From Cyanobium sp. NIES-981 (GTDB lineage: Bacteria > Cyanobacteriota > Cyanobacteriia > PCC-6307 > Cyanobiaceae), in NCBI GenBank assembly GCA_945901765.1, contig CAMDLO010000007.1, forward strand, positions 1-56,417: DNA of 56,417 nucleotides, read 5' to 3'. The position numbers and the translations under genes are program-made. Below are positions 5,189 to 52,739 of the stretch, in pieces. Each line of letters opens with the position of its first letter. Position 1 is the stretch's first letter. The notes beneath the pieces are model-generated. The model searched no databases, was not told where the DNA came from, and worked only from the letters and a program-made list of their open reading frames with translations.

Positions 5189-5218
5189 CGGGAACAGGGC
5201 AGCGGCGCGCCCCAAGCC

Positions 5219-5338
5219 GTGACTGTCAACAGCCGTGACTGTCAACAGCCGTGACTTTCAACAGCCGTGCCTGTCAACAGCCGTGCCTGTCAACAGCCGT
5301 GCCTATCAACAGTGCCTATCAACGGTGCCTGTCAACAG
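5219..5338. repeat. 16-bp tandem repeat, about 8 units, GTGACTGTCAACAGCC
   Basis: Units 1-5 are 16 bp (5219, 5235, 5251, 5267, 5283); 6-8 are truncated or degenerate; internal palindromes TGACTGTCA and CTGTCAACAG. Confidence 0.95.
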
Positions 5339-8558: not shown

Positions 8559-8599
8559 GACAGGGAACTCAGGGGCGGTGTCTCCGCCCTGTTGATCCT

Positions 8600-8710
8600 G
8601 CGCAGGCAGAACTCAGCCCCCCGAGACGCAGAATCCGGTCTCGGGAGACCCAGAACATTGTTTTGCGAGACGCAGAATCCCGTCTCGCGAAACACTGAAC
8701 ACTGTTCCGT
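8600..8710. repeat. 22-bp tandem hairpin repeat, 4 clear units plus 1 degenerate
   Basis: GAGACGCAGAATCCGGTCTCGG / GAGACCCAGAACATTGTTTTGC / GAGACGCAGAATCCCGTCTCGC / GAAACACTGAACACTGTTCCGT, preceded by CGCAGGCAGAACTCAGCCCCCC. Confidence 0.9.
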
Positions 8711-20600: not shown

Positions 20601-20632
20601 AAAAAACCGCCCCGCCGGAGCGGGACGGTGTC
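20601..20632 (-). terminator. Rho-independent terminator of the tRNA-Arg gene
   Basis: Minus strand CCGTCCCG-CTCCGG-CGGGGCGG-TTTTTT, immediately 3' of the tRNA. Confidence 0.85.
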
Positions 20633-20640
20633 TTGAAAGC

Positions 20641-20713
20641 GCGCCTGGAGAGATTCGAACTCCCGACCCTCTGATCCGTAGTCAGATGCTCTAATCCGCT
20701 GAGCTACAAGCGC
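20641..20713 (-). tRNA. tRNA-Arg(ACG)
   Basis: Minus strand GCGCTTGTAGCTCAGCGGATTAGAGCATCTGACTACGGATCAGAGGGTCGGGAGTTCGAACTCTCCAGGCGC; anticodon loop CTACGGA; cloverleaf arms pair. Confidence 0.95.
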
Positions 20714-20996
20714 AGATGCTTTTGGGGGATCCTAATCCACGGACCTCTTGAGCTGACACTCTGGAGACCGAACGAATCAGATCGATGAAAACCCGATCCT
20801 GATGCTGAAAAGCTGCAGATCGGTTGACCATGGAAGGCCGCAGAAGACTGCGACTGCCCGATGGGGTGATTCAGCCAGCTGGCAAGACCAGACAGATGGT
20901 CCGGATGGAACAGCAAACCCTGGCGTACCAGGAACAATCAGCTCACGGAAGCTGAAGCGCCGAAAAATGGCGATTGGCTGGATTAACCTGATGAAT

Positions 20997-21170
20997 AACC
21001 ATTAAATGGAGAACATTAAATGGAAAAACATTTAACGGCTAACCATTTGCTGGTGGGTCACCTGATAGCGGACCACTTGCGGCGGTCCACTTGAAGTGGA
21101 TCACTTGGCGGCCCACTTGAAGTGGATCGCTTGACGGCGATTCGCCTGGTGAATCAGCACAGGGTGCTGG
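20997..21170. repeat. Array of about 12 contiguous mini-palindromes, about 14-16 bp each
   Basis: CCATTAAATGG, ACCATTTGCTGGT, GGACCACTTGCGGCGGTCC, TCCACTTGAAGTGGA (21086-21100), CCACTTGAAGTGG (21113-21125), ATCGCTTGACGGCGAT (21126-21141), ATTCGCCTGGTGAAT, CAGCACAGGGTGCTG (21155-21169). Confidence 0.9.
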
Positions 21171-21324
21171 TGTGACCGACGCCTGGCTGGGATGGGCCTG
21201 AGCGTGAAAGCGTTGACCGGAGCCAACCCCTCAACCACCCAAGCATTCTCACCGCACAGGGGGCCCTTCCGTCAACCAGGCCACGCGGCGCGATGATTCG
21301 GAGGTCGTTACGGCTATTCCCCCC

Positions 21325-21570
21325 ATGCCGATCCGCTGGTACGGCCCGGCCGACCCCGCCGACCCCACCTATCGGCATTTCGAGCGGATCGTGAACCTCA
21401 CCCTGCACGCCGCCCTGTTCACCGCCATCAACAGCGGCGCCTGGGTCGTGCAGGAGCTGCGTCACCCCTGGGATCACCTGAACTGGTTCAGCTTCAGCTG
21501 GCTTGTTGCGCTGCTGGTGCATGCAGGCATGGTGGTGGCGCTCCGACCGGCTCGCCCCCCCGAACCATGA
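21325..21570 (+). CDS. Small membrane protein, function unknown
   Basis: 81 aa, two hydrophobic segments; stop overlaps the start of the next gene by 4 bp. Confidence 0.65.
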   Translation: MPIRWYGPADPADPTYRHFERIVNLTLHAALFTAINSGAWVVQELRHPWDHLNWFSFSWLVALLVHAGMVVALRPARPPEP

Positions 21571-45882: not shown

Positions 45883-46103
45883 CAGCTGCCTCCTGCTGTT
45901 CAGGCTACGACCGCAGCGGGCGGGCGGGCGGCGGACGGCGCCGCACAGCGACGCGAAAGCCGAAGAAAAGAGAAGCGTTTCCGCCTCATCCGTTGTAACA
46001 ACCGCTACCGAACGCTTGAATGAATGCACGTTGATCCGCCGACCAGGCGGACGCAGATCGTTCCGCGCCAGGCAACGGGGACGCGGGCACTGTGGAGAGC
46101 GTG

Positions 46104-52328: not shown

Positions 52329-52739
52329 CCATGGCGGGCGCTCTACGCCAACAACATGCGCTTCCACGCTCCCACCCAGGAACGGCAGGGCATCGCCGCG
52401 TGCAGCACCGCCCAAGGAGGATCTGCTGACAGGCTGCAACTCTGCTGAAAGGCTGCAACCCTGCTGACAGGCTGCGACTCTCCTGAAAGGCTGCGACGAG
52501 GTCCATCTCAGGGCCGGTGCGATGGCGATCGAGGCTGATGCGGCCTTGGGGGAAGGGAGACAGGACTGAAGATCAAGAGCAGCGAGTTGGTGTATCCGGG
52601 CACCAGCCGGCTGCTGTTCAACGGCGAGGGCAGGATCTGCGATCACCGCGACCACTTCGCTGTCGTGGGCCCCACCTTCGGGCCGGTGCCGCTGCCGGGG
52701 AGCTTCGTGCGCTGGCTCTGCAAGCGTTGTGTCGGCTGA
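52329..52739 (+). pseudogene. Remnant of an NTF2/SnoaL-like family gene
   Basis: PWRALYANNMRFHAPTQERQGIAA...[frame shift, repeats with stop]...LKGCDEVHLRAGAMAIEADA...[frame shift]...TGLKIKSSELVYPGTSRLLFNGEGRICDHRDHFAVVGPTFGPVPLPGSFVRWLCKRCVG*. Confidence 0.75.
52423..52498. repeat. 19-bp tandem repeat x4 inside the NTF2-like pseudogene
   Basis: CTGCTGACAGGCTGCAACT / CTGCTGAAAGGCTGCAACC / CTGCTGACAGGCTGCGACT / CTCCTGAAAGGCTGCGACG. Confidence 0.95.

Follow-up and report, generated by a model that had tools for sequence, protein, structure and literature searches.

What kind of element is a chain of small palindromes whose arms change from one hairpin to the next while remaining complementary, and what keeps the arms paired? 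Such a chain occupies positions 20997-21170 of the window, that is, of the whole 56,417-nucleotide stretch of Cyanobium sp. NIES-981 DNA analyzed here. A sequence-only reading of this stretch had listed the individual palindromes, all of which we have found at these positions. We have investigated the genomic setting of the chain, its internal repetition, its palindrome statistics and its folding, and we have compared the locus with those of related genomes.

RESULTS

Genomic setting of the palindrome array

The orthologous loci were gathered via the small protein, with some genomes being counted twice among the 105 loci. The comparison with these loci, a check proposed in the earlier note, found the array in none of the 105. 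The spacer between the tRNA-Arg(ACG) gene and the small gene measures 611 bp here versus 41-215 bp in the other loci (Table 1). The gene glyA, which we name from its sequence and presume to be correctly identified, is a neighbor of the locus. When the genome was searched with the tRNA-Arg(ACG), the next best match reached 79% over 61 nt, and the gene seems to be single-copy in this assembly, which is 94% complete.

The promoter-like element on the tRNA side of the small gene is intact in the window. In the 78 other loci where it was recognized, it lies 6-69 nt from the tRNA, compared with 530 nt here; the gap is 23-32 nt in the closest sisters of the window and 41-69 nt in three other loci. 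In most picocyanobacteria (e.g., L068, L041, and L017) the element ends only 6-9 nt ahead of the tRNA, so that the start of the transcript would coincide, or almost coincide, with the mature 5' end, giving an almost leaderless tRNA. The distance from the element to the small gene ranges from 2 to 121 nt across loci. The near-constant short gap to the tRNA in most loci, together with the variable gap to the small gene, makes the element look like a tRNA promoter. Its position and its TTGAC and GAGAAT hexamers lead us to infer that it is the promoter of tRNA-Arg. An interval of ~500 bp between element and tRNA was absent in all 105 compared orthologous loci.

Judged from this synteny, the array sits inside a ~500-bp lineage-specific expansion of the tRNA-Arg(ACG) 5' leader. 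By the arrangement seen in 80 loci, the expanded DNA, read in the orientation of the tRNA, follows the promoter-like element and precedes the tRNA, as expected of a pre-tRNA 5' leader, and the conserved element suggests that the 530-nt leader is transcribed with the tRNA. A closer tRNA-Arg promoter was not recognized by consensus within the leader.

The sequence-only reading had placed the array upstream of the small-gene cluster at 21325 and had suggested a multi-hairpin RNA leader. The context turned out to be a different one, with the array on the tRNA-Arg side of the promoter-like element and on the minus strand. Since the putative tRNA promoter sits between the array and the small-gene cluster, an mRNA leader of the small genes was rejected; the gene at 21325 starts beyond that promoter, and the array is probably outside its mRNA. 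The synteny and the element positions thus retain the idea of a multi-hairpin leader for the putative tRNA-Arg precursor and discard it for the small genes.

Table 1. Features of the tRNA-Arg(ACG) locus in window coordinates
Feature	Position	Strand	Description	Basis
Intrinsic terminator-like hairpin	20606-20629	-	Hairpin and T run just 3' of tRNA-Arg	Terminator scan
tRNA-Arg(ACG)	20639-20713	-		ARAGORN; Rfam tRNA, 64 bits
Predicted expanded 5' leader of pre-tRNA-Arg	20714-21243	-	530 nt	Synteny across 107 loci; location of the promoter-like element
Non-repetitive hairpin-rich leader part	20714-20996	.	e.g., CGCAGaagaCTGCG, GACCAgacagaTGGTC, CCTGGcgtaCCAGG, TCAGCTcacggaAGCTGA	Local fold, palindrome chain
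Degenerate tandem array	20997-21170	.	~12 units of ~14 bp; arms differ and stay complementary	Near-palindromic unit CCACTTGAAGTGG / CCATTAAATGG
Secondary duplication within the array	21081-21138	.	26 bp	90% matches (Tandem Repeats Finder)
Promoter-proximal leader part	21171-21243	-	No hairpin excess	Local fold, palindrome chain
Conserved promoter-like element of tRNA-Arg	21244-21275	-	TTGACGGAAGGGCCCCCTGTGCGGTGAGAATG (minus-strand reading, 21275-21244)	Recognized in 80/107 orthologous loci
Divergent small membrane-protein-like gene	21325-21570	+	81 aa, first of small-gene cluster	

The array is a worn tandem repeat with excess arm complementarity

Autocorrelation and Tandem Repeats Finder revealed periodicities of 14-15 and 26 in the array, which is made of constant-period, head-to-tail copies of one unit, as intergenic minisatellites are. 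Its core is a worn tandem repeat with a near-palindromic unit, and this ~14-bp repetition accounts for part of the palindromes. The units share a mean identity of ~45% and retain self-complementarity, with arm sequences varying from unit to unit (CCATT, CCACTT, ATCGC, CAGCAC).

Palindromes were scored as chains of non-overlapping perfect palindromes with arms of at least 4 and loops of 3-9. The array had a chain score of 17 versus 4.1 ± 2.1 in dinucleotide shuffles (0/500; 0/2000 in a repeat run), so the comparison with shuffled controls that the earlier note had proposed came out in its favor. Repeating a palindromic unit in tandem is by itself enough to enrich a sequence in palindromes, and hence we have chosen controls that preserve the array. 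Column shuffles preserving the unit consensus never reached the array score (0/1000), which was still significant (0-1/1000) after collapse of the 26-bp duplication together with another unit. In the half-swap control, the right halves were exchanged between units and the center was re-chosen every time. The halves formed 57 pairs within the real units and 46.4 ± 3.0 after swapping (0/5000), with a p of 0.002-0.008 when near-identical units were removed. This pairing excess stems from units 5-12, which make up the latter half of the array, units 1-4 showing none when tested alone. Finally, a simple simulation of a perfect palindromic minisatellite decaying neutrally to the observed unit identity matched the score in at most ~2% of the runs, and usually in less than 1%.

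Since column shuffles, half swaps, and neutral-decay runs all fell short, the complementarity needs more than tandem duplication alone, as the sequence-only reading had held. Arm complementarity is higher than expected from the consensus of the units or from neutral decay as simulated. The genome comparisons, made on 850 kb of sampled stretches of this genome, ranked the region first in absolute palindrome excess among 290 intergenic regions (80-700 bp), although some GC-rich coding windows, a small number, score as high as the array; it must be borne in mind for all these tests that the stretch was selected for looking palindromic and that the array units are related by descent.

Folding of the leader and of its counterparts in sister genomes

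We have computed local folds with pairs at most 32 nt apart. The z-scores were -4.2 (plus strand) and -5.8 (minus strand) for the array, -2.8 (plus) and -3.5 (minus) for 20714-20996, and ~0 for 21171-21245. The hairpin-rich stretch therefore extends beyond the 20997-21170 reported in the earlier note. The palindrome chain of 20714-20990 was weaker than that of the array (p about 0.012), and 20714-20996 was not recognizable as further decayed array units.

For the real leader, the expected number of tRNA bases paired with it was 0.8. Shuffling the leader raised this number to 24 ± 16, and genomic segments of similar composition put in its place gave 20 ± 13, with 6/120 and 2/56 of the respective controls reaching a value as low as that of the real leader. 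This is suggestive of a leader that insulates the tRNA from mispairing, an effect that would be modest, as ~4-5% of the control leaders equal it.

In related genomes, a single hairpin tends to be present in the 23-41 nt leaders, its arms differing from one leader to another, e.g., CGGCATggcaATGCCG in L009, GTCGCggttGCGAC in L011, CAGCCgccaGGCTG in L012, and GGGCAgagcgaTGCCC in L015. The summed hairpin signal of the sister leaders was equaled in 10/2000 shuffles for all leaders and in 25/2000 for six leaders, one per lineage (p about 0.01); the sister leaders L008 and L077 lacked it. We regard this tendency to a single hairpin as suggestive only.

Searches for copies and known families

Copies of the insertion were sought in its own genome, in the genus, in phages, and in plasmids, with only short chance matches being obtained, and the array was absent from the 12 congeneric species searched. 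The open frames of the insertion had no Pfam match. In the whole window, the matches reaching the Rfam gathering score were limited to the tRNA and to a glutamine-II riboswitch, whose aptamer lies at 46026-46087. A permissive Rfam threshold over the leader returned implausible eukaryotic matches far below the gathering score.

Other short repeats were observed as well. Downstream of psbI, at window positions 8559-8710, lies an array of 22-bp hairpins (CGAGACGCAGAATCCCGTCTCG and its variants), and no such array was seen at that place in 12 congeners. In the spacer at 5215-5338, a 16-bp unit (AGCCGTGACTGTCAAC) is repeated six times and is then succeeded by three copies of a version shortened to 13 bp, with a stable fold on the minus strand only (z -4.2), and a non-palindromic 19-bp unit, TCTGCTGAAAGGCTGCAAC, occurs four times at 52422-52494. 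Elsewhere in the genome, a spacer (L195, 4758-4916) holds a 14-bp unit, TGAGTTGATGGTCA, in approximately eight copies, with TCATGA formed at the junctions. The genes of ribosomal protein operons are usually closely spaced; an apparent operon of this kind contains a ~170-bp spacer with several small palindromes (L149, 2353-2520).

DISCUSSION

Proposed origin and maintenance of the array

The explanation that we favor, to which we would give an even chance, is that the array forms the core of a minisatellite-type, lineage-specific expansion of the tRNA-Arg(ACG) leader that has been kept self-pairing for the sake of tRNA folding and RNase P cutting. A short hairpin-bearing leader, such as those of the sister species, would have expanded by slippage and duplication, a growth that would parallel that of many intergenic minisatellites of the genus. 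The old promoter would drive the long leader, which RNase P would cut off. The letters of the leader could drift freely provided that local self-folding was kept and pairing with the tRNA avoided, and this local-folding constraint, perhaps aided during replication by template switches that correct the hairpins, would preserve the complementarity of the arms. We propose that self-pairing was retained because pairing between leader and tRNA would be harmful. In this regard, one report (PMC9433436) describes leader pairing with the 3' end of the precursor tRNA as inhibiting RNase P binding.

Some observations speak against this explanation. Selection on the RNA should favor the transcribed strand via G-U pairs, and the fold energies (-55.7 kcal/mol for the plus and -56.0 kcal/mol for the minus strand) show no strand preference. 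The insertion is, by the locus comparison, shared by no relative, so that compensation cannot be traced along the tree. Besides, a closer promoter could have arisen, and the hairpin signal of the sister leaders is weak.

A mutational origin

A purely mutational explanation, possible although on balance doubtful, would combine hairpin-templated template switching (quasipalindrome correction) and replication slippage in a neutral spacer, without selection on RNA structure; the sequence-only reading had likewise raised a templated or hairpin-correcting expansion. A DNA process predicts complementarity that is equal on both strands, and on the point of equal fold energies it fits better than RNA selection. 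Template switching creates and mends hairpins (PMC8794818), with bacterial quasipalindromes having been studied as well (PMC7202029), and the array 3' of psbI (8622-8706) shows a G-C to A-T change at corresponding stem positions between units, also in keeping with such a process.

The slippage component is readily accommodated, such arrays being common in the genus. Intergenic arrays with 10-30 bp units numbered 34 in the sampled 850 kb; the congeners G007 and G002, of which 200 kb each were scanned, had 10 and 3, respectively, and shuffles had 0. The genus carries roughly one short-unit array per 20-70 kb, the unit being private to each. Our literature search found no paper on these short-unit intergenic minisatellites of the genus. 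The difficulty for the mutational explanation is that the other intergenic minisatellites of this genome and its genus show no palindrome enrichment (4/47 units at p < 0.05) and that the intergenic DNA of the genome is in general only slightly hairpin-rich, whereas a genome-wide mutational process should show more. Moreover, the relatives offer no ancestral or intermediate sequence that would reveal a switch event. The tRNA-Arg leader array in this respect belongs to a widespread class but has a property that is unusual in it.

Selection on RNA and mutation bias are two plausible processes that may act together. We also put forward, as a speculation that is rather unlikely to hold in full, that repeated template switching made and mended many hairpins while the leader grew into a 530-nt self-insulating string, the single hairpins of the sister leaders, with their species-specific arms, representing an earlier stage.

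Chance and protein binding

It seems to us improbable that the array is an ordinary degenerate minisatellite whose seed unit was palindromic by luck, with chance and post-hoc choice providing the remainder. The units are alignable at the periods found, about one in 12 units of this class is palindromic at p < 0.05, units 1-4 have no excess of their own, and the stretch was picked for its palindromic look. Nevertheless, column shuffles, half swaps, and the neutral-decay simulation remain below the observed complementarity, and the non-repetitive part of the leader is hairpin-rich too. The sequence-only reading had also considered a protein-binding array, here taken as a set of operators through which a DNA-binding protein would regulate the tRNA or the divergent small genes. 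Such an array would suit palindromic units of 11-16 bp beside two divergent promoters and is most improbable, with half-sites unconserved between units (the four arm sequences given above), an array missing from all orthologous loci, and no second array in the genome or the genus.

Significance of the locus

If the leader is transcribed, the single apparent gene of an essential tRNA would carry, in a freshwater cyanobacterium, an unusually long precursor leader built of hairpins, and the locus would lend itself naturally to asking what amount of additional RNA the maturation of a tRNA can bear. It also constitutes a bacterial case for separating selection on local RNA folding from hairpin-correcting mutation, being suited to this because the sisters retain leaders of 23-32 nt and others of 6-9 nt.

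Comparison with known systems

Insertion of a MITE or another transposable element was rejected, as the ends of the insertion have no inverted-repeat pair and no further copies were found in the genus, in phages, or in plasmids. HIP1 of cyanobacteria (GCGATCGC, PMC4390886) is likewise palindromic, but it is one fixed octamer scattered over the genome, whereas the arms of the array vary and are confined to a single locus; the array is therefore not a HIP1 element. REP, BIME, and REPIN sequences (PMC3733652, PMC3116915) resemble the array in being palindromic, extragenic, and sometimes clustered. This assignment also failed, since searches of the genome and the genus matched only the array itself, apart from short chance similarities; it has no dispersed copies and no conserved arm sequence, and its unit is about half the size.

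The array shares with quasipalindrome or template-switch hotspots the short inverted repeats and the arms that match beyond independent mutation. It differs from them in that many hairpins follow one another within a single spacer, where the switch event itself is not observed. The array also resembles bacterial intergenic minisatellites or VNTR arrays, which likewise consist of short head-to-tail units (~14 bp here), are intergenic and lineage-specific, and have a unit private to the locus. What sets the array apart from these is that its units stay self-complementary at ~45% mean identity and that it lies between the putative promoter of a tRNA and the tRNA itself.
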